Part shown: positions 45,801 through 61,102 of the stretch, piece after piece
Numbering within the stretch: the first letter of the stretch is position 1
Layout: each line of letters starts with the position of its first letter
Source of the DNA: Balneolaceae bacterium
GTDB taxonomy: Bacteria > Bacteroidota > Rhodothermia > Balneolales > Balneolaceae
Assembly: GCA_017643365.1 (NCBI GenBank)
Contig: JAEPNO010000007.1
Coordinates: 1-64,000, forward strand
Direction: 5' to 3'
DNA length: 64,000 nucleotides
The notes under the pieces: generated by a model
Seen by the model: only the letters and a program-made list of their open reading frames with translations
Database searches by the model: none
Told to the model about the DNA's origin: nothing
Made by a program: the position numbers and the translations under genes

Positions 45801-48597
45801 TACCATTATTACGAATGGTATTTCCTAATAAAGTACTGGCTGCTTTCACGTCAGAATTATGCACCCCATCCCAATTGTTATCTTCAATAATGGAGTTAGA
45901 AATTTCCCTAATAAAAGAATTATAATTAGGTCCTTGAGCAAGTATCCCGTAGCGACCACTATTTTTAACGATGGTGTTTCTAACCGTTAAATCTGTACTA
46001 CCATATCTGGCATAAATACCATGATAACGTTCTGTATCTAGTACTTCAGAATTAGTTATAGTATAACTGCCATAGTCTAGTTGTATTCCATTATAAAATG
46101 CATCAGTGACTTTTACATGATCAATGGGATTTTTCAAAGAAGTATTATTCAAACTTAAATAGAGTGCTCCGTCACCACCATATCTTAATTCAACATGTTT
46201 GATCCTTGATTCATCAGTGTTGTGATTCGCACTATTTGTAAGTGTAATACTCAATTGATCCCAATCATAGGGCTTGGCAGAAACAGTATCATCCAATGCA
46301 TCGGTATCACCACCGGCCGTATCATCTCTCCAAGAAGTAAAGATAATTGGGTTTTCTTCTGTCCCTTCTGCTACTAAAATACCGTCGTATACTTTGAAAT
46401 CTCTCCCATTTTGTCTTGAATCAAGATCTCTGGTATTAGGGCTCATCTTTACTATTACACCAGGCTCAATTACTAGAGTATCATTCGCATTTACTGCATT
46501 TTGATAAAAATATGAGTTAAACATATACGCCCCGGATGTAATATTTTCAGGAAAAGTGGAACTCAGTGTATCTTCTAACGCTCTGCCATCAAGGCCAAGA
46601 ACATTGTTATATGTATTGCCGTTAAATGTATTTCCATCATTTCCTAAGTCGTCTTCATAAATATGTCCAAGTGGTCCCCAAATTGTGATTCCATACTGGT
46701 TATCTTCAAAAGTATTTCCGTAAATCTGAGCAGACGAAGTTTTTAATCCATCTAAACTATTCCCTCGGAACGTACTGTTTCGAACAACCGCATTTTTTTG
46801 CATACGATTTCGGAAAAACAGTTGTAATCCAGCCCAGCCATTATTCTCAATAGTCAAATTTTCAGCAAGAAAGTTTTCCGAATCGTTGGTTCCAATATCT
46901 ATTCCGGTGCGTCCATTATTTGACGCTGTAACATTTACAAGGCTGTCTATTTTCTGTTGATAGGAACCTCCCCCTTCAAAATTAATCCCATTGAAATTAT
47001 TATTGCTAAAATTGCCACCTACAATACTTACTAACCCATTGGTGTAGGCATAAATTATCATGCCATGATTATTGTTAAATTCAGCAGTCAGGTTTTTTAA
47101 TTCAACGGGTGCAGCAATGTAAAATCCTGCTGATGCATTATTATTCGCAGTATTATTGTTAAAAGCAGTAAGTGTTTTTTGAACACGAATACCATACGAA
47201 TTACTATTGGTAACGAAAGTATTAGTAACTGAAGTTGTAGACTCATCTATATATAAATTTCCTGAGCTGCTGTAACCACCGTACCGGATATCTACATAAT
47301 CAAAAACATTATTTACCGATTGATCGAATAAATAAATCCGCCGCCAGTTTCCTCTGTTTGGTTCAGTAGCTCTACCATCTCCATTACTGTCACCGCCAAT
47401 GGCGTCATCATATTGTGAAGTGAAAATTATCTTGTCGTTTTCAGTACCATCAGCAATCAACGTACCGTAAATAAAGAAATCAATATTGTCGGCAAATTTG
47501 ATAACCGCACCGGGTTGGATAGTGAGTGTCTGACCAGTGCCTAACGTGATATTGTTTTTTACCCAATACACAGAATCGGCACTCCAAACATCGCCATTAA
47601 CCGGGTTTGAAGTAATCTCACGCACCGGAAGTGTTGCGCCGTATAACCAAGGGGTAAAATCGATGTTGTTTGAAACTGCATCGCCATTACCGGTTGGATT
47701 TAAAGCATTGCTCGGGCCGGATTTATCGCCCCAGAAATTATATTCTGCAGTTACTAAGCCTGTACCGCGGTTATCAACCCCGAATGTGGTACTGTTTCGG
47801 ATGGTGTTGTCAGAGATATTTGGTGACTGCCCCGCAGCTTCTATCACTACGATTCCATAGTTGTTGCCATCAATAACGTTGTTTTCGATGTCAGGAATCG
47901 CTCCGTTATCGATGTAAATACCCACGCCATTTGAGTCGATTCGGGAATCATGAATACTTGGCGATGAGTTTATCGGAACTCGAATTCCACCGGTAGTATT
48001 TTCTGCCACCACTGAGTTGTCTACCTCAAAACTAAGACCTAAATCAGAAAAAATTCCATAGCCATTGTTATTTCTGAACTCTGAATTTTGGATTAACGGA
48101 CTGGAAGCTCGTAAATCGATACCATGACCAGCACTATGTCTAAATACTGCGTTGGTGATATCAAAGGCGAAAGCACCGGTACGATAGGTGACCATAGCTC
48201 CTGATCCGGCTCCACCGCCATATTCAAGAATCACATAATCAAATACTGAACCAACGCCTGAAGTATTATTGAAACGAATAGTACCCCAATCGCCCGCTGC
48301 CGGGCTCCCTGCACCGGATGTAAATGTAACTTCATTGCCCGCTGATCCATCCGCTACAATTGCTCCATCAACAATCAACGAAGTCCCTGTATCAAACTGT
48401 ACAGTAACTCCTGCTTCGATTGTTAGCGTAACCCCTGGGTTAACAATCACATTTGCGGTTACTTGATACGGACTATTTGCTAGTGTCCATGTTTGATCTG
48501 TGGTGAGGGAATCGGAAACTGAGGTTTGGGCAAATGCTGCCTGGTTAATTAAGAATCCGACTGATAGGAATAGAGTGAATTTGGCTAAAAACTTCAT
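42859..48597 (-). CDS. Secreted beta-helix protein with dockerin-like domain and type-A sorting domain
   Basis: A 1,912-aa protein with a signal peptide (about 1-23). Residues 30-1630 are right-handed beta-helix repeats full of Asn/Gly turns (NNGYGIF, NNASAGFYI, SGIYARY). A unit of about 345 aa (period 1,035 bp, about 46,750-44,430) is repeated, with shared segments GAYMFN, FTSWRDDTAGGDTDA, YDWDQLSITL and FIREISNSIIE. A dockerin-like pair follows: GDVTINGTISAFDAS and GDVTGNGTVSSMDAS, matching the D-x-N-x-D-G calcium-loop pattern. After that a beta-domain related to cohesin (FYGAEMELILPAG) precedes LNQNYPNPFNPSTN to RKMLLIK. The ATG lies 78 bp downstream of a regulatory dyad. Likely carbohydrate-binding or polysaccharide-lyase-like fold; no catalytic residues identified. 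Confidence 0.87.
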   Translation of the reverse strand: MKFLAKFTLFLSVGFLINQAAFAQTSVSDSLTTDQTWTLANSPYQVTANVIVNPGVTLTIEAGVTVQFDTGTSLIVDGAIVADGSAGNEVTFTSGAGSPAAGDWGTIRFNNTSGVGSVFDYVILEYGGGAGSGAMVTYRTGAFAFDITNAVFRHSAGHGIDLRASSPLIQNSEFRNNNGYGIFSDLGLSFEVDNSVVAENTTGGIRVPINSSPSIHDSRIDSNGVGIYIDNGAIPDIENNVIDGNNYGIVVIEAAGQSPNISDNTIRNSTTFGVDNRGTGLVTAEYNFWGDKSGPSNALNPTGNGDAVSNNIDFTPWLYGATLPVREITSNPVNGDVWSADSVYWVKNNITLGTGQTLTIQPGAVIKFADNIDFFIYGTLIADGTENDKIIFTSQYDDAIGGDSNGDGRATEPNRGNWRRIYLFDQSVNNVFDYVDIRYGGYSSSGNLYIDESTTSVTNTFVTNSNSYGIRVQKTLTAFNNNTANNNASAGFYIAAPVELKNLTAEFNNNHGMIIYAYTNGLVSIVGGNFSNNNFNGINFEGGGSYQQKIDSLVNVTASNNGRTGIDIGTNDSENFLAENLTIENNGWAGLQLFFRNRMQKNAVVRNSTFRGNSLDGLKTSSAQIYGNTFEDNQYGITIWGPLGHIYEDDLGNDGNTFNGNTYNNVLGLDGRALEDTLSSTFPENITSGAYMFNSYFYQNAVNANDTLVIEPGVIVKMSPNTRDLDSRQNGRDFKVYDGILVAEGTEENPIIFTSWRDDTAGGDTDALDDTVSAKPYDWDQLSITLTNSANHNTDESRIKHVELRYGGDGALYLSLNNTSLKNPIDHVKVTDAFYNGIQLDYGSYTITNSEVLDTERYHGIYARYGSTDLTVRNTIVKNSGRYGILAQGPNYNSFIREISNSIIEDNNWDGVHNSDVKAASTLLGNTIRNNGRSGVYYWHNSLDSTDVFFTGNIVENNANTGIISSAANFVDNQFNNNEFGIGLIGKLGHRYTDENGIDGNTFSGNTFNNVVALYGLGLKGTLSATFPEQVTSGAYMFNAYWYQNAVNTSDTLKIEPGVIVKMGYKTVDLDQRQNGRDFKIYDGLLLAEGTPENPIIFTSWRDDTAGGDTDAADDTVSARPYDWDQLSITLSNNAAYNTEESVLKYVELRYGGDGALTLSMNGTSLINPIDHVKVLDPFYNGMYLDHGKFTLTNSEVRNSRNSSGIYARYTGSDLTVRNSIIAGNAQYGVIANGISYNSFIREISNSIIENNGREGIYTERAKNPVTIQNNKVRNNARAGMYMNIDRSVTTDTVLTISGNVFENNDGPGFVSSRAIIVDDTLRGNKYPFGVTGELSRSGTVNERGNYYEGNVIENNEFDSLYIVTGTIHGVLGGSFPEGYKNKLILKEQITANVQVNSGDSLIIKPGVIIKNPADGRYGFYISGTFLVEGTEDEKVVFTSLRDDTFAGNTNNDTTGIQPAINNWSGIELWNPSTDSSYINNLIVRYAAKGLYLYDTDVVVDSTITSFNSSGIIVERGIPTIRYSDIHSNHSGLFVSNNGNPLIQLSNIYNNRDQGLYQAAGTNIMAENNFWGDPSGPFVNNGPDQNVNGQGDRINVASGTVDYRPYLVGRNGILLGDVTINGTISAFDASKILLHVVGLDILTGNNLAAGDVTGNGTVSSMDASLVLQYVVGIITGFPGQGKIIVPEPQNMLALDYEDSDAFTDITYNHKGGFDFYGAEMELILPAGTVDRVEWTNSAFSDHIELNYNQVGDTLRIAMASAKPIRKSGDLGDIRLIYSEESTASSISEQIKYHKFAANEVDLTEFVNENFTTSENETLIPDEFALNQNYPNPFNPSTNISYQLPADAKVQVQVYNMLGQLVQTLVDDNQKAGVYNLRWDASTFSSGTYLLRIDVVGSDNQNYSQIRKMLLIK

Positions 48598-48653
48598 GGT
48601 TAAACTCTGAGTTACTGTTAATCAACACTACTGTGTTAGTTAAGCAGATACTA

Positions 48654-48692
48654 AAGAGTTCATTTTTTTCAATCACTACATGGGTATGTGGT
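48654..48692 (-). promoter_or_regulatory. Operator dyad plus promoter for the beta-helix/FN3 operon
   Basis: The minus strand reads ACCACATACCCATGTAGT (48692-48675), then after 21 bp TAGTATCT (48653-48646) as a poor -7 box. The gene's ATG is at 48597. It is one of four copies of ACYACATA-N4-TGTRGT in this region. Confidence 0.6.
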
Positions 48693-48709
48693 ATCTGGTA
48701 GTTTTTGGA

Positions 48710-49423
48710 TTATTTTGCCCCAGAATCGGGCTCAATTAATCGTTTCATGATGCCTTTACTAACTGCTTCAGATCGAGAGTGAACCTGTAATTTGTTGTAG
48801 ATATTTCGAATGTGATGCCGCACTCCATCTACCGAAAGGAAAATAGATTTACCGATGGCTGCATATGATTTTCCGGTCGCTAATTCCTGTAGTATTTCTA
48901 ATTCCCGTTCTGATAATTGATCTTCTTCCGGTACAATAGGTGCATGCATTTTAGCAATTATTTTTCGAGCAATATTCGGAGTAATTGGCGAGCCACCATC
49001 GTGAGCATCTTTTACTGCAGCAACCAGTTCATCGGGAGTCACTTTTTTCATGAGGTATCCAACTGCACCGGCTTTTATGGCTTCAAAAATGTGTTCATTA
49101 TCGTCGTGCACCGTGGCCATTATAATCTGCACTTTTGGATGAATTGCCTTGATAGCGCGTACCCCTTCGATTCCACTCATTCCAGGCAAGCCAATGTCCA
49201 TAATAATTACATCGGTCTTTTTTAATTCTTCCGAATCCATCGCGGCTTCCACCGAATCAAAACTTTTCAACACGCACAAATTCTTGTCGTAGTCGATAAA
49301 AGTTTGCCAACCTTCGCACATGTATTTGTTGTCTTCAACTATAATTACTTTTATCAACGAACTCCCCCATTTGTACTGTTTTGATCGTAGTGCATCGGCC
49401 ATTAAAAAAGTTTGCATGAACAT
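48710..49423 (-). CDS. NarL/LuxR-type response regulator
   Basis: A receiver domain with phospho-acceptor Asp76 (VIIMDIGLPGMSG), a preceding acidic pair in VEDN, and Lys in LMKKVTPDEL. A LuxR-type HTH follows at about 170-225 (LSERELEILQELATGKSYAAIG... SVDGVRHHIRNIYNKLQVHSRSEAV). It is a cytoplasmic transcription factor, probably dimerising on inverted repeats. The ATG 49423 start gives 22 residues before the receiver domain; ATG 49402 or TTG 49357 are also possible. It lies downstream of a kinase gene and has its own dyad and promoter. It is the only regulator in the locus, so I infer it serves both kinases. Confidence 0.92.
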   Translation of the reverse strand: MFMQTFLMADALRSKQYKWGSSLIKVIIVEDNKYMCEGWQTFIDYDKNLCVLKSFDSVEAAMDSEELKKTDVIIMDIGLPGMSGIEGVRAIKAIHPKVQIIMATVHDDNEHIFEAIKAGAVGYLMKKVTPDELVAAVKDAHDGGSPITPNIARKIIAKMHAPIVPEEDQLSERELEILQELATGKSYAAIGKSIFLSVDGVRHHIRNIYNKLQVHSRSEAVSKGIMKRLIEPDSGAK

Positions 49424-49436
49424 CTAATTTAAATGA

Positions 49437-49462
49437 ACTCAGATTCTTTCAAAAACCTGAGT
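49437..49462 (-). promoter_or_regulatory. Leader hairpin before the response-regulator gene
   Basis: ACTCAG (49437-49442) and CTGAGT (49457-49462) form 6-bp arms in the leader, 13 bases before ATG 49423. It may affect translation; nothing else supports a function. Confidence 0.3.
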
Positions 49463-49501
49463 CTAATTTTGGTTTAATCTTCTCTTTTGGAAGGACATAC
49501 A

Positions 49502-49548
49502 CAAGAATAGAAGAACCTCGATACAGTATCACCACACAGATATGTGGT
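49502..49548 (-). promoter_or_regulatory. Operator dyad plus promoter for the response-regulator gene
   Basis: The minus strand reads ACCACATATCTGTGTGGT (49548-49531). After 21 bp comes TATTCTTG (49509-49502), one mismatch from TA-N2-TTTG. The dyad arms ACCACA/TGTGGT are perfect. It would permit autoregulation. Confidence 0.7.
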
Positions 49549-52395
49549 TTACAGCGGAAGCTCCAATCGCCATCGAGTTCCCATTTCCGGTTCTGAGATC
49601 AGACTGATCGAAGCCCCTAATTCTTCGGCTCTTTTTTTAATATTTGCTACTCCATTTCCAATTCTGCCCGAATCTACATCAAATCCGGCACCGTTATCTT
49701 GCACTATCAATTTTAGCAGACCATCTTCTACATCCAGAATTACATCCACCTGAGTAGCCTTCGAATGGCGAACGGTATTGGTAAGCATTTCTTTAAAAAT
49801 CATCCACAAGTGTTGGCGTACATTCATCGACAGCTCGCCATCAATGGCTTGGGTAATATTGAGATTATACTTGATGTCGCTGGATTCTAACAGATCGGAG
49901 GCATACCGCCGACATTTCGACAAAAACAGCTCCCAGTTATCATTCTCGGGAGTTATCGACCAAACGATATCCGTGATTTTTTCTTTGGCATCGCCTGCAC
50001 TTTCGGTTATTAGATTAATGAAATGAGATTTTCGTTGCTCATCCTGATCGGTTTTAACCGCTTCCGCAAAGTAACTTATTCCGGTTAAGGTGGCGCTGAC
50101 TTCATCGTGTAAATCGCTGGCAATTTTAGTGCGCATGCGTTCTACTTTTAACAGCTGATTGAGTCGGATTCGGTGTGCTGTGTATATCAAACCGGATATT
50201 CCAATCACATACAACAAATAGGCCCACCAGGTGCGATACCATGGCGGTAAAATCGAAAAAGCGAGGCTGTCGGTAGAGCCTTCCACCCCGAATACGTTTT
50301 GTGATTTCACTTTAAACACATAGTCGCCTTCCGGGATGTTGGTGTAATCTTTTTGTGTTTCTAGGCTCCAATCGCTCCATTTTGCATCAAAGCCTTCTAG
50401 TTTGTACGAGTAAGTGTTTCGTTCGGGATCGATGTAACATGCGGCAGCATAGGTGAACCGTAAAGCATTATCTTTGTATGGTAAAATGATTTCATTGGAT
50501 GGCTCACCAAATCCGCCATAAATCAAAGAATCCTGATCGACAAAAGTGCCTGTGATGTTGGTTTTGAAGTTGGTAGGTTGATGTGAATAGCCAACCGGTA
50601 CCCCTACAATCTTTCTTTCTTCTGCAAACCATACGTGATTTTCACCACAATCTAATCCATAGATACCGTTTTCAAATCCAATGCCTTGAAACCACTTTTC
50701 TTCAACTTTGAAATCTAAATCTGACTGAATAGATCTTAATAAGTTAAGTGAACTACTATACCAAAACTCATTGTCACATTGGTTAAAGTAGCTTACATCA
50801 TTTGCTGACAGATTGATATTATGTTTACGTACTCGCTTTCTTAATACTAAATTTCTTTCATCGAGTACCCATAACCCATTACTGCTACTTAGCACGAATA
50901 AGCTATCTTCTTCAACAACGAGACTTCTGATGCCCGTTATCTTTTTTTCAGGATTTGCAATTTTTTGACTGTTTTTATTGTCAGGATCAAAAAGAACTAA
51001 TTCATCAGCGGAAGTTGTAAAAGCAATACTATTCTTGAAGGAAGTTGTATTATCAGAAAAAACATATTCCGCCACTACTAATTCTTCCTCTCCTATATTT
51101 AAATCTATTTCAAATAGTCCATAATCATTAAATCCATATAGCCTTTCATCATGAAATAGTAAATCGGTATAAGTTCTTTCGTTAATTTGGCGAAGTATCG
51201 GTTCGATTTGCCAAACACCATTTGTTGAAGAGATAATTAATTGATTATCTGAACTAGCAACATCGTAAATAAAATTTGAGTCATATTTTAAAACATCATC
51301 AAATGATTCTGAATCAATATTATACTCAAGGACTTTTTGGTTGGTAATAGCGAATAATTTCTCATTTAATTCTACGGTTTTGAAAGGTGTACCAGCTTCA
51401 TCCGGCAAATTAATTGACCTGAAATGTTGGTCAGTATTTATTACAGAGATTCCATTACTTAGAGTTGCCCATAAAAGATTATTTCTATCTAGGAATAAGC
51501 CGTAGATATCATTGTCGTTTAATCCTTTATCTGTAGTAATATGCTCAATGAGGTTAAAATTTTTGTCAAAAATAATGATACCCCCGCCCAGTGTACCAAA
51601 ACCATATGAGTTATTATCTAATTTTATTAGTCGATACCCAGGATACTCGCTCAGAAGTGCATTCAATTCGCTTTCAATAGGTTGTAATTTCTTATTGTTA
51701 TAACGTAACAGTCCTTTTTCACGTGAATATATAATTAGTTCATTTCCATTTTCTACTATGCCATAAATCCGATCGTTCTTTAATATTTCAGTCCCTTCGA
51801 GTAATACAAAGCCCTCATCTGCCACAATCGAGACTCCTAGTCCATGAACATTTAAAAGTATTTCATCATTGACAAGAAAGGCGTTATCTAAAATATCTTT
51901 GTAATCAAGGACTGAAATTGAATCTTCGATTTCTGAATAAATGAACAAGTACTCTAAACTCCTGAAATAGACTTTATTTTGATGAGCAATTGTTTGCCTG
52001 ACTTGCGAGAAATCCCGGGCATCCTCAGGAATCAAATCAAATAAAGAAAAATATTTCATTTGGTTAAGTGAATCCGGTTCAAGAAAACCAAAGTCGTTCA
52101 ATCCACCTACATAGACTTTACCAGCATTGTTTTTATCTAAGGAGAATACAACTTCTCTTCTTCCCACATGAATTGAAGACCATTTATTCCCATCATATCG
52201 AACCAACGCCGTTGAGTTTCCAAACAGTAGACTACCGTCATCTATACTCAGTCCTGCCCACATCTGTGTTGAATTACTGAAATCTTCTGTTGTGTAATTA
52301 TCTAATACTTCAACTTTACTAATTTGTGACAAGGCGTTACTGCTTAATAAAGTATTCATCCCAAATAACAGGATTACACAAACGTACCTAATCAT
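49549..52395 (-). CDS. Propeller-sensor histidine kinase
   Basis: A 948-aa membrane kinase with an N-terminal signal anchor and a periplasmic two-component propeller (two sets of beta-propeller-like repeats, e.g. LSIDDGSLLFGNSTALVRYDG). A Y_Y_Y domain follows near 640-715 (YSYKLEGFDAKWSDWS, EGDYVFKVKSQN). One membrane helix precedes a HisKA_3 transmitter (SDLHDEVSATLTGISYF, His763) and a HATPase (NTVRHSKAT, DNGAGFD, GNGVANIKKRAEELG). Such propellers sense polysaccharides in Bacteroidota, by family analogy. It is encoded after two small paralogous genes and 26 bp from the nearer one, and precedes the response regulator. Confidence 0.93.
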   Translation of the reverse strand: MIRYVCVILLFGMNTLLSSNALSQISKVEVLDNYTTEDFSNSTQMWAGLSIDDGSLLFGNSTALVRYDGNKWSSIHVGRREVVFSLDKNNAGKVYVGGLNDFGFLEPDSLNQMKYFSLFDLIPEDARDFSQVRQTIAHQNKVYFRSLEYLFIYSEIEDSISVLDYKDILDNAFLVNDEILLNVHGLGVSIVADEGFVLLEGTEILKNDRIYGIVENGNELIIYSREKGLLRYNNKKLQPIESELNALLSEYPGYRLIKLDNNSYGFGTLGGGIIIFDKNFNLIEHITTDKGLNDNDIYGLFLDRNNLLWATLSNGISVINTDQHFRSINLPDEAGTPFKTVELNEKLFAITNQKVLEYNIDSESFDDVLKYDSNFIYDVASSDNQLIISSTNGVWQIEPILRQINERTYTDLLFHDERLYGFNDYGLFEIDLNIGEEELVVAEYVFSDNTTSFKNSIAFTTSADELVLFDPDNKNSQKIANPEKKITGIRSLVVEEDSLFVLSSSNGLWVLDERNLVLRKRVRKHNINLSANDVSYFNQCDNEFWYSSSLNLLRSIQSDLDFKVEEKWFQGIGFENGIYGLDCGENHVWFAEERKIVGVPVGYSHQPTNFKTNITGTFVDQDSLIYGGFGEPSNEIILPYKDNALRFTYAAACYIDPERNTYSYKLEGFDAKWSDWSLETQKDYTNIPEGDYVFKVKSQNVFGVEGSTDSLAFSILPPWYRTWWAYLLYVIGISGLIYTAHRIRLNQLLKVERMRTKIASDLHDEVSATLTGISYFAEAVKTDQDEQRKSHFINLITESAGDAKEKITDIVWSITPENDNWELFLSKCRRYASDLLESSDIKYNLNITQAIDGELSMNVRQHLWMIFKEMLTNTVRHSKATQVDVILDVEDGLLKLIVQDNGAGFDVDSGRIGNGVANIKKRAEELGASISLISEPEMGTRWRLELPL

Positions 52396-52421
52396 TATGA
52401 TTGGCTATTGTCTTCAAAGCT

Positions 52422-52844
52422 TTAGGGATGATGAATATCTGGATGGATATCAGTTAACTGCTTCTCCTCCATAAAATGAATTTCTATTTCGATTTGTCCA
52501 TCAGCTCGTTTATAAATTGAAAAATGATGTGGTATTGGATTAATGTCTTGACTATTCAAATCAGCAATTAGCGCATTACCTGCAAGAGATATTTTAATTC
52601 CTTCTAACCTGTCGATTGGCAAAGCAGGAATTCTATATAAAACTGAAAATTCGTGATTTACAGAATCATTAGAATCTTTTGGACTGTAAGCTAGAACTGA
52701 TTTCTTTTTCAATTTTGAAGTACGTTTACCTTTATCAATTAGAGCTCCTTTCTCAGCACCTTGGTCAATTTTAACAAATACCTCCATATCTGTTTCTTTG
52801 AGATTATTTTTTATTGTATGAGAATTTGAAGTTGAATTTTTCAT
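52422..52844 (-). CDS. Hypothetical protein with HPDIHHP tail, paralogue of upstream neighbour
   Basis: A 140-aa protein with no signal peptide. It shares with the next gene a VFVKIDQG... / FFLRLNK... core, an IPHHFS motif before an IHF strand, an L-K/R-ETDM word, and the C-terminal tail HPDIHHP. Residues before the core are polar and may be a cleaved or degraded N-terminus. I recognise no family. It starts 2 bp after the upstream stop and is followed 26 bp later by the sensor kinase, so it may be part of the sensing path. ATG 52844 is the only start in good position. Confidence 0.6.
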   Translation of the reverse strand: MKNSTSNSHTIKNNLKETDMEVFVKIDQGAEKGALIDKGKRTSKLKKKSVLAYSPKDSNDSVNHEFSVLYRIPALPIDRLEGIKISLAGNALIADLNSQDINPIPHHFSIYKRADGQIEIEIHFMEEKQLTDIHPDIHHP

Positions 52845-52846
52845 AA

Positions 52847-53527
52847 TTAGGGATGATGAATTGCTGGATGTATATGTGTTAATATGTAATTAATAAAATT
52901 TACTGCTATTGATTCCTCGTTTATTTTTTCAATATCCATATCAGTTTCTCTTAAAAAATCTTGAAAAAAAGTAGCCAAATCTTCACACTCATCTCCTTCG
53001 CATTTGTATTCAACTTCATCTCTTATGTGATTCTCAAAGTTTTGACCCAATGATACTAAATCCGAGAAATGAATAATTATTACTAGCGAATCATTTTTTT
53101 CAATGGTTGAAAAATGATGTGGTATATGGGTTGTACTTGGAATCAGATGCTTTTTTCCAATAGCAATTTTAGCCCCAATCGGTTTATTAGCATCAATAAG
53201 TTCCGATTTATTAATTCTAAATATGAACTCTATCTGCTCTAGAACTCCGACAGTAGGCTGAATATCATATCTTAAAGTATTGATATTTGGAAAATTTGGA
53301 TCAAACGGGTCGATTCGTGATGATCTTTTATTATTTATAAGTACACCTGCAGGTCTATATTCTGTTTTATTTAATCGAAGAAAAAAATCGACTGGAATTT
53401 CCATACAATTCAAAATTAAAATTGAAGTTGAATTAGATTCACACTTCGAATCTTGTTGTGCTTCGGAATTTGTACTGAAAATTGCTACTAAAAGTATTAG
53501 TCCCGGAATTAATCGTTTATAAATCAT
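52847..53527 (-). CDS. Hypothetical exported protein with HPAIHHP tail
   Basis: A 226-aa protein with a signal peptide (YKRLIPGLILLVAIFSTNSEAQ) and therefore likely periplasmic or secreted. It has a beta-rich core (EIPVDFFLRLNK, IEFIFRINKSELIDANKP), the IPHHFS word, two Cys in YKCEGDECED, and a His-rich C-terminus (THIHPAIHHP). The following gene is a shorter paralogue. The His tail could bind metal; that is speculation. It heads the kinase operon but lies about 250 bases after the proposed start of transcription, beyond a terminator-like hairpin. Confidence 0.65.
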   Translation of the reverse strand: MIYKRLIPGLILLVAIFSTNSEAQQDSKCESNSTSILILNCMEIPVDFFLRLNKTEYRPAGVLINNKRSSRIDPFDPNFPNINTLRYDIQPTVGVLEQIEFIFRINKSELIDANKPIGAKIAIGKKHLIPSTTHIPHHFSTIEKNDSLVIIIHFSDLVSLGQNFENHIRDEVEYKCEGDECEDLATFFQDFLRETDMDIEKINEESIAVNFINYILTHIHPAIHHP

Positions 53528-53667
53528 TTGCCTTTAATTTTAAAAAACCCAGACCCGGCAGACGGCGCCATACCCCACTTATATCTTTTAGTCTGATTGA
53601 ATTACGTTTATTTAGATTTAATTTTCAAGTGCTAAATATATATTCATATAGACTTAACATTCTTTGA

Positions 53668-53780
53668 TAAAAAAAAGCCGACTAAAATAGCCGGCTTTTC
53701 TTGTTAATGGTCTTCTACTCTGTGCAAAAATAGAAGAGGTCATTTGCTCATCATATCCCCCGAAAAAACCCACACTAACC
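53668..53780 (-). ncRNA. Candidate ~110-nt small RNA or attenuator leader
   Basis: The minus-strand transcript proposed to start near 53780 would meet an intrinsic terminator at 53699-53673 (arms AAAAGCCG/CGGCTTTT, then a run of T). It would be about 110 nt. A second hairpin lies before it: the plus strand has GGTCTTCTA and TAGAAGAGGTC near 53708-53741. Whether transcription reads through to the 226-aa gene is unknown. Confidence 0.35.
53673..53699. terminator. Bidirectional intrinsic terminator / attenuator hairpin
   Basis: Arms AAAAGCCG (53673-53680) and CGGCTTTT (53692-53699) are complementary, with a T run on either side. On the minus strand it lies inside the leader of the kinase operon, 146 bases before its first ATG. 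Confidence 0.75.
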
Positions 53781-53783
53781 GTA

Positions 53784-53831
53784 ATTATTATAATTGAACA
53801 CATCCTGCCATTCACCACACGGTTATGTGGT
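53784..53831 (-). promoter_or_regulatory. Operator dyad plus promoter for the small-protein/kinase unit
   Basis: The minus strand reads ACCACATAACCGTGTGGT (53831-53814). After 21 bp comes TATAATAATT (53792-). The dyad arms are perfect. It lies just beyond the terminator of the 54949/53907 operon. Confidence 0.65.
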
Positions 53832-53846
53832 ATTTGATTGCCTAAT

Positions 53847-53875
53847 CAAAAAAAAGCCGGACAAAGTAGCCCGGC
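53847..53875 (-). terminator. Terminator after the cohesin gene
   Basis: GCCGG (53856-53860) and CCGGC (53871-53875) form a short GC stem. Eight T follow on the minus strand, downstream of the 346-aa gene. Confidence 0.7.
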
Positions 53876-53906
53876 ATTCTAAATATCATACGTAACCTGA
53901 TCTATC

Positions 53907-54947
53907 CTATTTGATAAGCATCATCTTTTTTGTGAGCACCTGATTACCACTTGTTAACCGATACAAATAGATGCCACTGGCAAGTGCACTTGCATCAAAC
54001 GATACGGAATGCCTTCCGCTAGTTAACCGATTTTTAATGAGAACAGCTATACTTTGGCCTTGTAAATTATATACTTCAAGTTTAGCGAAACCTGTTTCGG
54101 CTAGTGTAAAACTGATGTTTGTTGACGGATTGAATGGATTCGGATAGTTCTGAGCTAACCAAAATTGACCAGGTGTTTCATATTGCTCATTCTCATTGGA
54201 TACCTTTAATTGGATATCGAGAATTATAGATTCTTCAAATACTCCACCATTGGTATCTTCAACTCGAATGGAAAGAGTGGCAAATCCTACAAAATCGGCA
54301 GTGGTAATGGTTACCAAACCGGTTTCTTCGTCGAAAGTACCAAAAACAACTTCGGGCTCTAAGCTTACCTGAATGTCTAACGAATCGAAGGCGTCTTCGG
54401 CATCAGCAAATACTGTTTCGTCGATGTTAAATTGAAGAGTATCACCGGAAATCAATACTAAAGTATCCGGAATATTTACGGCAAAAGGTGGTTGATTTCC
54501 TCCCTCTCCAAATACTCGAATTCGTGCTTCTGCAGCGTTTTCAACTACGGATTCTTCATTAATTCTGTATTCATCCAATTGCAAAAAAGTATCACCTGAG
54601 GTAAGTCCAATAAACTCCAGATGTACAATAGTTCCTGATGATGTAACCGGATAGGTTGATGCCATTGAAAACCTAACCTTTCCATCAGCACCGTTTTCAA
54701 TTGAAAGTACAGAATCAGAGATTGTTGAAGATTCCGAAATTCCAACATACTGAAGAGAAAGCGTATCGTAACTAATCATCAAATTGATGCCGGTAACATT
54801 ACTGCTCTCGTTTTTTAAATGAACAGGAAACAGCAGGGTTTCTCCAACAACGGTTGAAGTATCCGACATTGTAACGGAAGCCTGTCCCCAAGCTAAAGCC
54901 GGGGACATAACTGCCATTATCAGTAAAGTTGAAAGAAACTTATTCAT
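53907..54947 (-). CDS. Secreted cohesin-like protein with type-A sorting domain
   Basis: A 346-aa exported protein (signal peptide about 1-20). Residues 21-150 form a cohesin-like module: SVTMSDTSTVVGETLLFPVHL, GINLMISYDTLSLQYVGI, GKVRFSMASTYPVTSSGTIVHLEF. A cadherin/Ig-like module with PFAVNIPDTLVLISGDTL follows to about 255, and the sorting domain (LAQNYPNPFNPSTN to KKMMLIK) ends it. It starts one base after the end of the 1,342-aa gene. It may bind a dockerin partner from the same locus; the reading is inference, since no binding residues are tested. Confidence 0.8.
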   Translation of the reverse strand: MNKFLSTLLIMAVMSPALAWGQASVTMSDTSTVVGETLLFPVHLKNESSNVTGINLMISYDTLSLQYVGISESSTISDSVLSIENGADGKVRFSMASTYPVTSSGTIVHLEFIGLTSGDTFLQLDEYRINEESVVENAAEARIRVFGEGGNQPPFAVNIPDTLVLISGDTLQFNIDETVFADAEDAFDSLDIQVSLEPEVVFGTFDEETGLVTITTADFVGFATLSIRVEDTNGGVFEESIILDIQLKVSNENEQYETPGQFWLAQNYPNPFNPSTNISFTLAETGFAKLEVYNLQGQSIAVLIKNRLTSGRHSVSFDASALASGIYLYRLTSGNQVLTKKMMLIK

Positions 54948-54948
54948 G

Positions 54949-57900
54949 TTATTTGATCAACATCATGCGCTTAGTAAACGATTTATCACCAGTTTTTAAT
55001 TGATAAATATACACGCCACTCGACAGATTACCTGCTTGCCAGGTTATGCTGTACGAACCTGCTTCTTGCGTTTGATTTACCACCGTAGCCACTTTTTGGC
55101 CAAGCATGTTATAAATCGACAATTCCACATCTGCTTTTTCTGCTAAAGTGTATCCGATGTTTGTACTAGGATTGAATGGATTCGGATAATTTTGAAGTAA
55201 GCTGAATTCGCTTGGAACTTCCCCAATTACCAATTCATCCATTTCAGGAACCGAACGTTCATTCAGCACTATATTGGCCCTAAGTTTTGGTACCGCTTGA
55301 GCGTTCGCTGTATTGAATTCAATATCGAGTGTTTTACCCTCGAAAGGCTTAACTCCATACAACGACAGCAGTGTGCCATCTTCGGTTGTATTTGAAATTA
55401 TATTCCATCCGTCCGGAAGGTTTCTTATCGATTTAAAGGTTGCTCCGGCTGAAAGATCCAGTTCCATTTGAATGGCGTAGATTTCCATTTCGTTCTGAGA
55501 AACATCCAACTGTACAACGCTTTCGTTGCTATTACTTTCGGCTAGTAACCAGTTTGCTGAAACCGGTTTCTGATCTTCTTTTAACGGAAGTGTAATACAA
55601 CCGAGTTGATCTCGTAATCCAACGGTTTTTTGAAGTATCCAGGATGCATCAAAAGCACTGATATCACCATTTCCTGTAACATCAGCGGCGGTGGAATCGA
55701 GTTCAACCAGAGGGAAAACTCCTCCCATTTTCACGGTATGTTGCAGTACCAGTGTTGCATCTTCCGTACTTATAGTCACATCTCCAGTAACATCACCACA
55801 AAGGCGAGGAACAATATTAACAAAGGAGTACAGTTCGGGCGAAGGCATTTCGTTAATCGAGATATCTGAAACAAAGATTTCAGTTTCGCCAGCTGCTAAT
55901 ATATCGATGCCCATGTTGAATAATACTCCAGGTTCAGAGATATCATTTTCAGGAGTACCATCGGTAGCGAAAGCTACAATTAATTGCCCCTCAAGTTTAT
56001 TGGTGATAATGGTTGTGCCTTCAAGTAAGGTATTGGATTGATCACCGAGATTTACATCAACAAAGTTTGGATCAAAGTTGATCGTAAATTCCATTCCTTG
56101 AATTGGCTCATCGCCAAGATCGATTAAATCAATATTTAACGTTTCAAAGGTATTTGGAAGTGCAGCGAACGATATCATTGAAAGTTCGGCATCGAAGTTA
56201 TCAGGAATAATTTCGATATCGCTAAAGTCATGAATAGAAACTGCATAGATGTTTTCATCTAAACTAGGGATATAAAAATCCTTAACAACGGCCTCGATAT
56301 TAAAGAAACCTTGTGGTGCAGGTTGAAAGGCCCAGTCGCTATTGAATCCACTTTGAATCGACATCCACCCTATTTGAGTTTCCTCTTCATTTACGATCTC
56401 GTATACAAAACCGGCTTTGAGTGAATCTACAGGATCCAGAATCCGAACTCGTTCAACTCTAACCACTTCACTTTCGTATTCTTCACCATTGTTCGAGTAC
56501 TCATCGATATCTACAAGTTGTGGATTGGGCAGCGGATTTCCAGCCGAGACAACATCCCACGCATGAATATTGATTACTTCATGAAGACCGTTAAAATCGG
56601 CAGTAATTCCTGCAACTTTTAGTTCGTCACCAACTTGAATCTCGCCTGATTTTGTAGCCAAATTAAAATTGACAGAGTTTGTTGCAGAGAAAAATGGTCG
56701 ACTAAAAAGCGTTGTGGCTGCAGTTTCATCCTGCACGTATACGAAGTTATTTGTGATTCGAGTTACAATTCCCTGAACAGCTAAATGAGTACCATATACA
56801 CTATTTCGAGCGTCAATAATCGGTGAAGCATCGTAGTTATCGATATTTAAATCTGCTCGATCAATATCATGGAAATATACTGTAGGAACGGTCATACCAC
56901 TTACATCATCTATGTAAGTGATTCGATCGCTAAAATCGCCATCGGTGTCCGGGTTCTCAGGATCGGGAGCTTCCCATTGGAAAACACCGGTGGTATCATC
57001 TTTCAGAATGAATTTGTATCGAATTTCATCATCAATAGAAGCATTCAAAATTTCGGCAGTGCCGGTATATACTGAATCACCTAATTCGGCTTCTAATACA
57101 ATGGGTGCACCTGCATCCCATCCATTAAAACTGCCTACTAATCCAACGATGTGTTCGCCTTTATCAAAATTACCTAAAGCTTCCTGAACAGCAACATTCA
57201 CTGAAAAAGTAACCGGTGTAAAGATTGCTTCGATTTTTTCCATTTGAACATTGTCGATGTAAACGGTGTCGCCATCATTCGACTCAAAATTAAGTTTTAA
57301 CCCTAATCGAAGACCTAAGTCGGCATCAACGTCGGATGCGAAATAATCAAAAGAATAATACTCCCACTCGGTTCCTAATTCAAAGAAATGAGTATTTACT
57401 TCCTGAAAATTGCCTTCACCAGGCAATCCTAAAAATGCTTCAGAAGCAAAACCATCTACCGATGATTTTAGCCACATCGATACCTTGTAAAGATCACCTT
57501 CGGCAGGGAAAATCGGCTCATTTACAACCTGGCTTCTCCAAACATCTTCCGATCCATCAAATTGTACGATCACCCTTGCGGCTTTACCATCATCATCTTG
57601 CGAATCGTTAACTATTTCATAAACCGATGGACCATTAACCGTTTCAAATAACCAACCTTGATTACTTCCGGAAACAGGTCCTAAATTGTTTAAAGCAAAA
57701 CTTCCATTATAGTTTATGATATCTCCTACTTCATAGGGTGGCATTGGAGAGAAATCGAATTCTTGATTATTGAATAAAGCCGTTTCGATATACTTTTCGC
57801 GGGAGCCATCTTCGTCGTCATCTATTTCGGTTCCATCAAACGTAAAATATCTTTTACCTAGTTCGGTTACATCGTTTTCCCATATAAACTCATCTTGTTT

Positions 57901-58977
57901 TTCAATAACAAAACTATATTGAACGGTGTCGATAAATGAGGCGGTGATGAACGCTTCTGTCGAGTAAATAGCGCCATCGTCGGTATTCATAATTTGACCG
58001 GTCTCAGGATTCCAATCATTAAAATCACCAACCAATCGAACTAAATGGCTATCCGGTTTAAAATTCCCCATAGCATCTTGTGCACTCATATCAACCGAAA
58101 AGAGAACATCAAAGCCATAAAAGTCAAAACTCTGATTACTAAAAAATTCGGTAGGCAAGTATTTTTCTAATCGGTCATCATCATCATCGTCTACTTCTGT
58201 TCCGTTAAAAATAAAACTTCTGTTACCTACTTCATTCGGGTTGGGATTTGGCTCTTCCCAGTAAACTCCATTTTCATCAATTATGACAAACTTATACACG
58301 ATTTCACTACCTAAAGCATACTCGTCTTGATCAAAAGGAATTTCGATAGTGTAGATTGATTCAGGTCCTAGTGTTAAAATGTGTGGCTCAGCAGTACTCC
58401 AATCATTGAAATTACCTACTAAACCTACAATATCTCCGTCATCTGCATCAAAATTTCCAAGATGTGTTTGTACCCTCATATCTACCGTGAAGGTCACGTC
58501 GTAGTCGGTAGGTTCACCAAGTCCGGATTGCGCTAAATCATTGAAAAAATGGGTTAATGTGGTATCTGCTATATCGTCGCCATTCGAATCAGTTTCACTA
58601 CCGGATACTGTATAAATTCGATTATTGACTGATTCCCAGGTAACAGTTCCATCGTCATCAACTAAAATGAATTTATACTCTAGAACTGAATCAACTGTGA
58701 CATCTTGAAAAAGAAAAGGTCGAGCAAATGAAGTATCAACCTGATCGGTTAACTCTTCTGCGGCATCTTGCCAGCTTGTAAAATTACCGGCAATTTTTGG
58801 GGTATGAATTTCCGGATCATACACTCCTAATTCTTGTTGAACTGCAAGATTTACTTCAAAAGTAACCTCCAAATCAAATGTTTGTTCTAGTGCTTCGGTA
58901 TTTTGTGCATGTACTTTTGATATCGCAAATACAGACAATAGAATGCCCATTGCAAATTTCTGTAGCCGTTTATTCAT
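54949..58977 (-). CDS. Secreted carbohydrate-binding-like/cohesin/dockerin protein with sorting domain
   Basis: A 1,342-aa protein with signal peptide (about 1-24). Residues 30-410 hold three related beta-modules (VRLVGDFNDWNP, VGLVGNFNDWST, KIAGNFTSWQD), like starch-binding/CBM48-type folds. Near 420-595 is a CBM4/9-like module (QGWLFETVNGPS, DTVYIDNVQMEKI). A fourth related module (VGLVGSFNGWD) follows, then an OB-fold-like region (GTHLAVQGIVTRITNNFVYV) near 720-950. Next is a cohesin-like domain (IQGMEFTINFDPNFVDVN), a dockerin-like pair (GDVTGDVTISTEDAT, ADVTGNGDISAFDAS), a further cohesin-related module, and the sorting domain (LLQNYPNPFNPSTN to KRMMLIK). An AGGAG lies upstream of ATG, unusual for this group. 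It leads an operon with the 346-aa gene. Confidence 0.85.
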   Translation of the reverse strand: MNKRLQKFAMGILLSVFAISKVHAQNTEALEQTFDLEVTFEVNLAVQQELGVYDPEIHTPKIAGNFTSWQDAAEELTDQVDTSFARPFLFQDVTVDSVLEYKFILVDDDGTVTWESVNNRIYTVSGSETDSNGDDIADTTLTHFFNDLAQSGLGEPTDYDVTFTVDMRVQTHLGNFDADDGDIVGLVGNFNDWSTAEPHILTLGPESIYTIEIPFDQDEYALGSEIVYKFVIIDENGVYWEEPNPNPNEVGNRSFIFNGTEVDDDDDDRLEKYLPTEFFSNQSFDFYGFDVLFSVDMSAQDAMGNFKPDSHLVRLVGDFNDWNPETGQIMNTDDGAIYSTEAFITASFIDTVQYSFVIEKQDEFIWENDVTELGKRYFTFDGTEIDDDEDGSREKYIETALFNNQEFDFSPMPPYEVGDIINYNGSFALNNLGPVSGSNQGWLFETVNGPSVYEIVNDSQDDDGKAARVIVQFDGSEDVWRSQVVNEPIFPAEGDLYKVSMWLKSSVDGFASEAFLGLPGEGNFQEVNTHFFELGTEWEYYSFDYFASDVDADLGLRLGLKLNFESNDGDTVYIDNVQMEKIEAIFTPVTFSVNVAVQEALGNFDKGEHIVGLVGSFNGWDAGAPIVLEAELGDSVYTGTAEILNASIDDEIRYKFILKDDTTGVFQWEAPDPENPDTDGDFSDRITYIDDVSGMTVPTVYFHDIDRADLNIDNYDASPIIDARNSVYGTHLAVQGIVTRITNNFVYVQDETAATTLFSRPFFSATNSVNFNLATKSGEIQVGDELKVAGITADFNGLHEVINIHAWDVVSAGNPLPNPQLVDIDEYSNNGEEYESEVVRVERVRILDPVDSLKAGFVYEIVNEEETQIGWMSIQSGFNSDWAFQPAPQGFFNIEAVVKDFYIPSLDENIYAVSIHDFSDIEIIPDNFDAELSMISFAALPNTFETLNIDLIDLGDEPIQGMEFTINFDPNFVDVNLGDQSNTLLEGTTIITNKLEGQLIVAFATDGTPENDISEPGVLFNMGIDILAAGETEIFVSDISINEMPSPELYSFVNIVPRLCGDVTGDVTISTEDATLVLQHTVKMGGVFPLVELDSTAADVTGNGDISAFDASWILQKTVGLRDQLGCITLPLKEDQKPVSANWLLAESNSNESVVQLDVSQNEMEIYAIQMELDLSAGATFKSIRNLPDGWNIISNTTEDGTLLSLYGVKPFEGKTLDIEFNTANAQAVPKLRANIVLNERSVPEMDELVIGEVPSEFSLLQNYPNPFNPSTNIGYTLAEKADVELSIYNMLGQKVATVVNQTQEAGSYSITWQAGNLSSGVYIYQLKTGDKSFTKRMMLIK

Positions 58978-59003
58978 TGTAACTCCTGTAAGGTTAGAAA
59001 AGA

Positions 59004-59024
59004 GCTTTCTCCCCCCGAGAAAGC
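59004..59024 (-). promoter_or_regulatory. Leader hairpin with G5 loop
   Basis: Perfect arms GCTTTCTC (59004-59011) and GAGAAAGC (59017-59024) enclose CCCCC, so the minus-strand RNA has a loop of five G. It is in the leader of the 1,342-aa gene, 27 bases before ATG. Confidence 0.45.
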
Positions 59025-59056
59025 CATAAAGAATATGATTAAACCAAGTTTACCTT

Positions 59057-59102
59057 CAAAATAATTATTACTGTTTATTAGGCAACCACACACATATGTA
59101 GT
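59057..59102 (-). promoter_or_regulatory. Operator dyad plus promoter for the 1,342-aa gene
   Basis: The minus strand reads ACTACATATGTGTGTGGT (59102-59085). TTG follows at the dyad's end, and after 21 bp comes TATTTTG (59063-59057), with a good fit to the -7 box. ATG 58977 is downstream. It touches the end of the second kinase gene. Confidence 0.7.
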
Positions 59103-59104
59103 TT

Positions 59105-61102
59105 TTAATTTAGAGGTATATTTAAATTGCAGGAAGTTCCTTTACCTACCGAACTTTGTAAGCTAAAGCTAGCCTTTAGTTTATCGGCACGGCGTTTAAT
59201 GTTTGTCAATCCATTTCCACCTGATTTATTTTCAATATCGAAGCCAATTCCATCGTCTGAGACCGAGAGATATAAACTATTCCCTTGTTGTTTTATGGTT
59301 ACTTTTACAGTAGATGATTGAGCGTGACGGACAGCATTTGTGATGAGTTCTTTGTAAATCATCCAGATATGCTGTCGCATATTCATATCCAATTTTCCAT
59401 CAATCGCTTTATCAATATCCAATACATAGTTTATGCCTTTACTTTCGAGTAAATCGGATGCATAACGCCGGCATTTTGCAAGTAATAATTCCCAGTTATC
59501 ATTTTCAGGGGTAATCGACCAAACGATATCAGTTATTTTCTCTTTAGCATCGCCTGCACTTTCAGCTATCAGGTTAATGAAATGCGACTTCTTTTCGCTT
59601 TCTAAATCTTGCTTTACTGCCTCTGCAAAATAAGTGATTCCGGTTAGAGTAGCGCTAACCTCGTCGTGTAAATCGTTGGCTATTTTAGTTCTGGTTCGTT
59701 CTTCTTTTAGTTCGGCGATTACCCTATATCTGTACACCAAAAATCCACCTAAAGCTATAATCAAAAATATAATCGTAAATGTTCTGAACCGTACTAACGA
59801 GAGTTGGGCATTAACAGCTTCTAGTTCAAGATTTTTAGCTTTCATTTGATACCGAACTCTCCCCATTTCTTCCATCTGTATGCGCCCGGTTTTTTCTATC
59901 ATACGTTCATGATCTGCCAAAGAAGATAATATCGAATATGCTTCTTCATAATCTCCCTTAAGACGTAGCGCCTCTGCTTTTAAGCGTTGAAGCTCAACAT
60001 TTAGGATTGCCTGTGGTATTCTTTTACCTAATGCTAATCCTTCATCCGTAATTTTAAGTGCGTTTTCGTAGTCTTTTGATTGAATATTTTGCTTTGCCTT
60101 TAGAATCAAAAAACTAATGCGAGCAGGAAGCTGAACTCGCCGGGGATTGAATGCATCCAAAATAGCTATCACTGAATCTGTTTTTTCGTACATCCCATTT
60201 TCAAAAAATGATTCAGCTAAAAATAACTGGGTACCGTAGTACACTCCCGAGTTAGGAGACACCAGTTCCGAAGCTTCCAAACTATACAATAACCTCTGCT
60301 GCTGATCCCCACCTATTTTCTCAAGATCAGCTAAACTCCTGTAAATCGAAGCCATCAAATCATTACGCACATTATCTTTTCCAATACACTTTTCAAGCTC
60401 TTCAGTAGCTTTGTCTAGTTCAAGATTTCGCTTATAAGCATTACTGATTTTCAACCTAAGATTACACTCTGAATCTGGTGTTTTTGGACCTAATTCAAGC
60501 ATTTGATTATATCGCTCTAGAGCAATTTCTATGGCGCCAACACGGATATATAAGTCGGTAAGTTCGTTGTAAACGCTTTGCTGAATTCGATCATCAAATT
60601 GTTGATCATCCAAATATTCTAACAGGGTGTAGTAAATTGACTCCGCTTCAATATACTCGTTATTTCTGGATTTAATCCGTGCACGTTGTTGCATGGCGTC
60701 GATTGCTCGAAAATGCTTATCCAGTGCTTTGAATTGTTGCTCGGCCAGACCATAAAAGTATGCCGCTGAGTCCAAATCCGATCGATTCCAATACGTTGCT
60801 TTTAAAAAGTTCACATAAGCATTTTTATTCAGCTCAGAAATATCAGATTTGATCTCTATTTCCTGAATAAGATCTAATACCATTGCTGGATTTCTACGGA
60901 CCATCACATTCGAAAACTGAACATATAAGTCCAATACCGAATCAGGATCTGAAGTCTGATTCACCATTTGCCGAAATTGTTGTTCGGTTAATTGTGGTGG
61001 CGGTTGATTGGCTGGCGAAGCAGGGCGAGAAGATTGACTAAAAACAGACCATTGAAAACAAAAAATCATCAACAAAGTTGATGTACAAATTTTTGAACGC
61101 AT
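59105..61102 (-). CDS. TPR-sensor histidine kinase
   Basis: A 665-aa kinase with signal anchor (MRSKICTSTLLMIFCFQW), periplasmic TPR repeats to about 400, a coiled segment, one membrane helix (TFTIIFLIIALGGFLVY), and a HisKA_3 transmitter (NDLHDEVSATLTGITYF, His479) and HATPase (NAVRHAQSS, DDGIGFD, GGNGLTNIKRRADKL). Its transmitter matches that of the propeller kinase at about 62 of 72 residues after the HDEV box. No own regulator is adjacent, so the two kinases may share the single response regulator. Its promoter has no visible dyad. Confidence 0.92.
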   Translation of the reverse strand: MRSKICTSTLLMIFCFQWSVFSQSSRPASPANQPPPQLTEQQFRQMVNQTSDPDSVLDLYVQFSNVMVRRNPAMVLDLIQEIEIKSDISELNKNAYVNFLKATYWNRSDLDSAAYFYGLAEQQFKALDKHFRAIDAMQQRARIKSRNNEYIEAESIYYTLLEYLDDQQFDDRIQQSVYNELTDLYIRVGAIEIALERYNQMLELGPKTPDSECNLRLKISNAYKRNLELDKATEELEKCIGKDNVRNDLMASIYRSLADLEKIGGDQQQRLLYSLEASELVSPNSGVYYGTQLFLAESFFENGMYEKTDSVIAILDAFNPRRVQLPARISFLILKAKQNIQSKDYENALKITDEGLALGKRIPQAILNVELQRLKAEALRLKGDYEEAYSILSSLADHERMIEKTGRIQMEEMGRVRYQMKAKNLELEAVNAQLSLVRFRTFTIIFLIIALGGFLVYRYRVIAELKEERTRTKIANDLHDEVSATLTGITYFAEAVKQDLESEKKSHFINLIAESAGDAKEKITDIVWSITPENDNWELLLAKCRRYASDLLESKGINYVLDIDKAIDGKLDMNMRQHIWMIYKELITNAVRHAQSSTVKVTIKQQGNSLYLSVSDDGIGFDIENKSGGNGLTNIKRRADKLKASFSLQSSVGKGTSCNLNIPLN

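Follow-up and report, generated by a model that had tools for sequence, protein, structure and literature searches.

Four copies of an 18-bp inverted repeat (dyad) lie on the minus strand of a 64,000-nucleotide stretch of DNA from a Balneolaceae bacterium (assembly GCA_017643365.1, contig JAEPNO010000007.1, positions 1 to 64,000; the whole stretch is called the window below). Comparison of sequences makes it very probable, in our opinion, that the NarL/LuxR-type response regulator encoded at 48710-49423 uses this dyad as its operator, in an autoregulated module with class II activation and a partly RNA output. The dyads and the -10/-7-like boxes that follow them are:

49531..49548, minus strand: dyad ACCACATATCTGTGTGGT, upstream of the response-regulator gene, the autoregulatory site, found in the same place in nearly all orthologues
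49502..49509, minus strand: box TATTCTTG, with its TA 21 bp past dyad ACCACATATCTGTGTGGT
48675..48692, minus strand: dyad ACCACATACCCATGTAGT, upstream of the beta-helix/dockerin and cohesin/FN3 operon, not conserved in the congener G002
48646..48653, minus strand: box TAGTATCT, with its TA 21 bp past dyad ACCACATACCCATGTAGT
53814..53831, minus strand: dyad ACCACATAACCGTGTGGT, upstream of the small-protein/kinase operon, kept in G002 with a TA at +21
53785..53792, minus strand: box TATAATAA, with its TA 21 bp past dyad ACCACATAACCGTGTGGT
59085..59102, minus strand: dyad ACTACATATGTGTGTGGT, upstream of the operon of the 1,342-aa dockerin protein and a cohesin protein, kept in G002 where the TA is not at +21
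59056..59063, minus strand: box TATTTTGA, with its TA 21 bp past dyad ACTACATATGTGTGTGGT

The original prediction had placed four such dyads here, each 21 bp ahead of a TA, and had named the regulator, beta-helix/FN3, small-protein/kinase and 1,342-aa/cohesin units as the genes behind them. All four sites agree with zero mismatches, the distance is exact for all four boxes and the gene layout is as described. The window holds no further exact copy, as was also claimed, and at three mismatches the pattern shows no excess over shuffled sequence (14 matches versus 11.8 expected). Being palindromic, the dyad reads on the plus strand too; its assignment to the minus strand follows from the TA phase and from the way the genes are read, both of which are minus. 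The proposed scan of the genome with the consensus, done like our other genome-wide scans as a pattern search, returned five strict sites (ACYACAYR-N4-TGTRGT) in the whole 3.77-Mb genome (51 contigs) and none in the reversed control: the four in the window and a fifth on contig C11, which is also phased and stands 56 bp ahead of a gene for a 343-aa protein whose start resembles a signal peptide. With a looser phased pattern (C..CAYR..YRTG..G, 22 bp, TA...T) six sites were found in the genome versus three in the control, namely the window four and two neighbouring C11 sites, the one added by this pattern lying ahead of a leucine-rich-repeat (LRR) gene with a type IX secretion system (T9SS) tail.

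Conservation of this arrangement is seen at orthologous loci, the comparison that had been suggested as a further check. Regulator orthologues were gathered from whole genomes (first set) and from named genome contigs. In the first set, which covers several families, the best motif upstream of the regulator is ACYRCAT-N4-ATGYRGT, present in 25 of 26 orthologues with at least 50% identity, while a comparable motif score is reached in just 3% of randomly drawn segments of these loci; in nearly every orthologue the dyad sits in the gap between kinase and regulator genes. The joint set comprises 49 regulator promoters, or 47 with the window left out, and in 38 of these 47 a TA is found at +21, other offsets averaging 7% (binomial 3e-35); with the proteins dereplicated at 80% identity the count is 22 of 29. 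The non-redundant dyads outside the window number 114; at +21 a TA is found in 84 of them and TAnnnT in 78, while the TAnnnT count at any other offset is at most 12. In 92 genomes of the family the phased pattern gave 37 listed matches and none in the reversed control. The phase is retained in some orthologues of other groups (for example uncultured Chlorobi contig L175, L180). Dyad and 21-bp phase recur beside the regulator in dozens of related genomes.

Could the dyad act in RNA instead, as a hairpin, terminator or processing site of the upstream gene? Three of the four window dyads start no more than 17 bp after the upstream stop codon, and the dyad can form a short stem. However, no T run follows it, separate terminators exist (for example at 53875-53856, ahead of the dyad at 53831), some dyads lie far from upstream genes or face away from them, and the TAnnnT phase at +21 would be left unexplained. 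We find this explanation scarcely credible, and as a candidate it was ruled out by the phase.

The aligned profile of the regulator promoters reads aaACYRCATRnnYATGYRGTg, N20, TAtatT, that is, a consensus dyad ACYRCATR-NN-YATGYRGT, 21 bp and then TAtatT, with a conserved G just outside the dyad, at about -33, in 23 of 30. With the last T of the hexamer placed at -7 and the start site inferred from the -10 element, the dyad spans approximately -51 to -34 with its centre at about -42.5. Judged by sequence, this is the arrangement of a class II activator promoter, with the site centred at -41.5 to -42.5 and in fixed phase with the -10 element, and the fixed phasing and overlap with the -33 region on which the original prediction had built are upheld by the +21 counts for regulator promoters (38/47) and for all dyads (84/114). 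Autoregulation is indicated by the dyads ahead of the regulator's own gene and the kinase gene. A sigma-70 scan of the window showed no excess over shuffles and was uninformative. A repressor that covers the -33 region and blocks its own and the linked promoters would be another way to read this geometry, as the dyad adjoins the -33 region, which repressors also occupy, and is followed by the conserved G. Set against this, a centre near -42.5 with a free -10 element is the usual position of a class II activator, no extra operator is found over the -10 or the start, and Escherichia coli NarL activates from similarly placed 7-2-7 sites at -40 to -49 (napF) and -38 to -47 (yeaR) (PMC4549865). Repression appears improbable to us, and activation is the likelier mode.

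Which regulator reads the dyad then? The candidates for the signalling proteins are:

48710..49423, minus strand: NarL/LuxR-type response regulator (Response_reg and GerE), the candidate dyad reader
49549..52395, minus strand: Y_Y_Y/HisKA_3 sensor histidine kinase, beside the regulator in most orthologous loci
59105..61102, minus strand: TPR/HisKA_3 histidine kinase, ending 2 bp before a dyad

The regulator consists of a receiver domain (Response_reg, 3.9e-27) and a C-terminal GerE helix-turn-helix (9.4e-16), matches the structures of VraR, ChrA, DesR, DevR and NarL, and has its acidic pocket, phospho-acceptor aspartate and lysine (E30, D31, D76, K126) invariant in 23 orthologues; by this domain pair and these residues it classes as a NarL/FixJ (LuxR-type) regulator, with named relatives in Balneolaceae/Balneolales. 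The Y_Y_Y/HisKA_3 kinase is likely to be its cognate partner. The TPR/HisKA_3 kinase, which adjoins the regulator in L075, L077, L078 and L081, is a possible second partner.

Among the 92 family genomes, 32 contain both regulator and dyad, 49 neither, 4 the regulator alone and 7 the dyad alone (Fisher 1e-13). The dyads found without the regulator are single ones, and their frequency (7 in 56 regulator-less genomes) is close to that in the reversed control (8 in 92). Together with the placement in the kinase-regulator gap, this co-occurrence speaks for the local regulator, as originally proposed. The dyad might nevertheless be the site of some other DNA-binding regulator, be it a global factor or a paralogue of the response regulator, and stand near this two-component system by coincidence: the genome encodes further LuxR-type regulators, the next nearest at 40% identity (C21), and binding by the local one is predicted. 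The C21 regulator, however, has counterparts of similar identity in most relatives, including those that lack the dyad, and is therefore not the reader; the presence of the dyad tracks the window regulator instead, and the dyad stands in the promoter of its orthologue at nearly all loci. Moreover, paralogues of the regulator at about 52% identity carry an altered dyad in the same place, ACTRCC-N6-GGYAGT, so site and regulator diverge together. We consider another reader quite improbable, even slightly more so than repression.

In the loci where a paralogue of about 50% identity goes with ACTRCC-N6-GGYAGT (L066, L146, L148, L173, L177 and others), the spacing to the next TA-like box is different. 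Within the orthologues, the recognition helix reads R-[H/Y]-H-I-R (alignment A2) and the His or Tyr at its second residue tracks A or G at dyad position 4: with His, AA is found 12 times, AG 4, GA 1 and GG 0, and with Tyr, GG 11 times, AG 7, AA 6 and GA 1. On a tree with two changes this amounts to one or two independent pairs, and we have set the covariation aside as a lead only.

What do these promoters transcribe? At several of them an intrinsic terminator comes before any gene. Such a terminator is found within 250 nt downstream in 30 of 119 phased promoters versus 27 of 600 (4.5%) control intergenic starts, so about a quarter of the phased dyad promoters are predicted to make short terminated transcripts. 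This is new compared to the earlier reading, the operator part of which is borne out while the short terminated RNAs or attenuated leaders at several promoters were missed. In the window two transcripts are concerned:

49430..49502, minus strand: leader RNA element of the regulator transcript, GTCCTTCC and a hairpin, homologous to the A6/R2 RNA family
53669..53781, minus strand: predicted RNA of about 113 nt (small RNA or attenuated leader), ending in the intrinsic terminator GCCGGCTATTTTAGTCGGC-T8

The regulator leader is the best window match of the A6 model (36.2 bits, E 4.7e-6), which was built without window sequences. The RNA of about 113 nt in the kinase-operon leader has a fold z of -4.1, and its terminator is kept in the congener. 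Because of this RNA and the homology of the regulator leader, a small RNA or attenuation is probably part of the output. The same operator heads small-RNA genes in relatives: G088 contains four tandem 188-bp units, each with a phased dyad, a -10 element, an RNA of about 115 nt and a terminator and with no gene (L215:8183-9330, C262), a fifth dyad-led copy lies about 400 bp further on, and more copies of the terminated RNA of about 115 nt are found on C102 and C104 and in G084 and G089. Two families can be modelled. In RNA family A5 a GAGAACTGAG stretch is invariant and the terminator stem covaries, with compensatory change in 8 of 10 pairs; 16 of the 18 strong matches of the A5 model are behind a dyad, 14 of them with a TA at +21. 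In family A6 AGTCCTTCC is invariant, the terminator pairs covary, and all 7 strong matches are behind phased dyads. The R1 model gave nothing convincing in the window, and no Rfam model matched the window or the small-RNA loci at gathering score. Two other leader elements can be mentioned: a conserved element AGTGGGGTATGGCGCCGTCTGCCGGG at 53542-53590, near the end of the kinase-operon leader, with the similar GGGATGTACGGGGACGTCTGCCGGGC in the leaders of L070 and L071, and a hairpin GGCTTTCTCGGGGGGAGAAAGCT with a T-rich tail at 59003-59025 in the leader of the 1,342-aa gene, kept in the congener.

We propose the following mechanism. A local membrane kinase would phosphorylate the regulator, the phosphorylated dimer would bind the dyad and recruit RNA polymerase as a class II activator, and it would in this way switch on its own gene and the small-protein/kinase operon (positive feedback), as well as the two operons of dockerin and cohesin proteins, which have type IX secretion tails. 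A structured leader would stand at the start of two transcripts out of the four, those of the kinase operon and the regulator.

Several observations weigh against this proposal or limit it. Thirty of the 114 dyads have no TA at +21 in either direction, and in a Rhodohalobacter-type clade CAnnnT replaces the TA box, the phase being unchanged. Four genomes have the regulator and no exact dyad, and three of these hold the paralogue of about 52% identity alone. In the congener the beta-helix site is missing and the site of the 1,342-aa gene is without its TA at +21; because of this divergence we are less sure of the beta-helix and 1,342-aa targets than of the regulator and kinase promoters, and within the regulon the surface operons are either the most recent or the least secure members. 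The counts include related genomes, whose kinship inflates them, an effect that dereplication reduces and does not remove. The preference for activation over repression is an argument from position, and the predicted window RNAs could be either free small RNAs or attenuated leaders.

The closest known sites are the 7-2-7 sites of NarL/NarP (PMC4549865), where a LuxR/GerE-type regulator likewise activates from inverted heptamers just upstream of the -35 element, as is predicted here, and the 16-bp core CYRCATR-NN-YATGYRG would fit the 7-2-7 spacing. The half-site sequence differs, however, the 21-bp phase is fixed at autoregulatory and target promoters, and the predicted targets are T9SS surface proteins, a kinase operon and short RNAs. 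The promoter resembles that of the Bacteroidota primary sigma factor (TAnnTTTG at -7, TTTG at -33; PMC7366714) in the starting TA, the T at position 6 and the conserved G at about -33, whereas here the hexamer reads TAtatT, there is no enrichment of the G that ends TAnnTTTG (8/29) and the -33 element is fused with the end of the dyad. In Porphyromonas gingivalis, PorX binds the porT promoter (PMC8050853) and is described in a section heading of that paper as 'activated in a growth-dependent manner but not autoregulated'. Both PorX/PorY and the present pair are two-component systems of Bacteroidota type tied to type IX secretion, but the domain architecture of PorX differs from that of our LuxR/GerE regulator, and control is predicted here for T9SS cargo and not for the machine.

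As to the RNA output, the GacS/GacA - RsmX/Y/Z system of Pseudomonas also has a NarL-family regulator, a palindromic site, a conserved -10 hexamer and several small-RNA copies per genome (PMC3684763), and likewise a response regulator is predicted from sequence here to drive short terminated RNAs. In contrast to it, the same site is found also at the kinase and regulator genes and at protein operons, and the RNA motifs are GUCCUUCC or GAGAACUGAGAAC. CsrA/RsmA (PF02599) was found in none of eight genomes tested, in which the controls were found, and the system therefore does not qualify as Gac/Rsm in the narrow sense. In the literature that we searched, no paper deals with this motif or with a regulator of this kind from Balneolaceae. 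We give an even chance to the wider view that Balneolales have a so far undescribed cascade from a two-component system to small RNAs. In it one NarL-type regulator, acting through one operator in one phase, would control its own gene and that of its kinase, surface or enzyme operons that differ between lineages, and rapidly evolving families of small terminated RNAs, locally arranged in tandem; it would be a counterpart of Gac/Rsm without CsrA, acting via another RNA target or RNA-binding protein. In any case, the site, phase and -10 element provide a testable sequence rule for a regulator lineage without a binding site in that literature, and they link a two-component system to T9SS-tailed cohesin/dockerin pairs and, in relatives, to tandem small-RNA genes. 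Should this be confirmed, the kinase-regulator core would exemplify how a conserved sensing module can be combined with exchangeable outputs, and the RNAs would represent a design like that of Gac/Rsm in a phylum of which the genomes tested have no CsrA.

The exchange of outputs can be followed between lineages. The typical order in relatives is dyad, small protein, kinase, dyad, regulator and often a further dyad with an effector operon; this kinase-regulator-dyad core is conserved across Balneolales, and the effector genes behind the dyad vary by lineage. Culturable relatives that carry the module include Fodinibius halophilus 2W32, Fodinibius salsisoli, Rhodohalobacter sulfatireducens and Balneola sp. 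EhC07 (loci L145, L161, L174 and L177). The effector is an AtuA-family/FAD oxidoreductase/ABC/RNase Z/ABC operon in Gracilimonas-/Fodinibius-like genomes; in a soda-lake family it is an S9 peptidase and in Rhodohalobacter-like genomes a tricorn-like S41 protease. Genus g6 has subtilase or trypsin-like genes as effectors, and the window has T9SS cohesin/dockerin genes. In genus g6 (L070:11035-12847, L071:7778-9222) the small-protein slot before the kinase is taken by a subtilase or trypsin-like protease with a small protein, and a signal peptide is not evident in these proteases.

In the window, the genes on the minus strand follow each other in the order TPR kinase, dyad, CBM20/dockerin, cohesin, dyad, the 226-aa and 140-aa small proteins, Y_Y_Y/HisKA_3 kinase, dyad, NarL-type regulator, dyad, beta-helix/dockerin and cohesin/FN3. 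Apart from the signalling genes given above these are:

54949..58977, minus strand: 1,342-aa CBM20/dockerin protein with a T9SS sorting tail (predicted target)
53907..54947, minus strand: 346-aa cohesin protein with a T9SS tail (predicted target)
52847..53527, minus strand: 226-aa small protein with a signal-peptide-like start, related to the 140-aa protein
52422..52844, minus strand: 140-aa small protein in an operon with the kinase, with no Pfam match
42859..48597, minus strand: 1,912-aa beta-helix/dockerin protein with a T9SS tail (predicted target)
36775..42828, minus strand: 2,017-aa cohesin/FN3 protein with a T9SS tail (predicted target)

Both surface operons (36775-58977) thus consist of one dockerin and one cohesin protein, with Por_Secre_tail on all four, and the pairs possibly form a T9SS-exported, cellulosome-like surface complex. 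A defence-system library gave weak subtilase, trypsin and ABC-type matches only. The 226-aa and 140-aa proteins found no match in Pfam, NCBIfam or PADLOC, and a predicted structure of the 140-aa protein (pLDDT 50) was not used. The two (52422-53527) are paralogues with a shared C-terminus, PHHF..IIHF..TDIHPxVxHP, and their distant relatives precede the kinase in other genomes.

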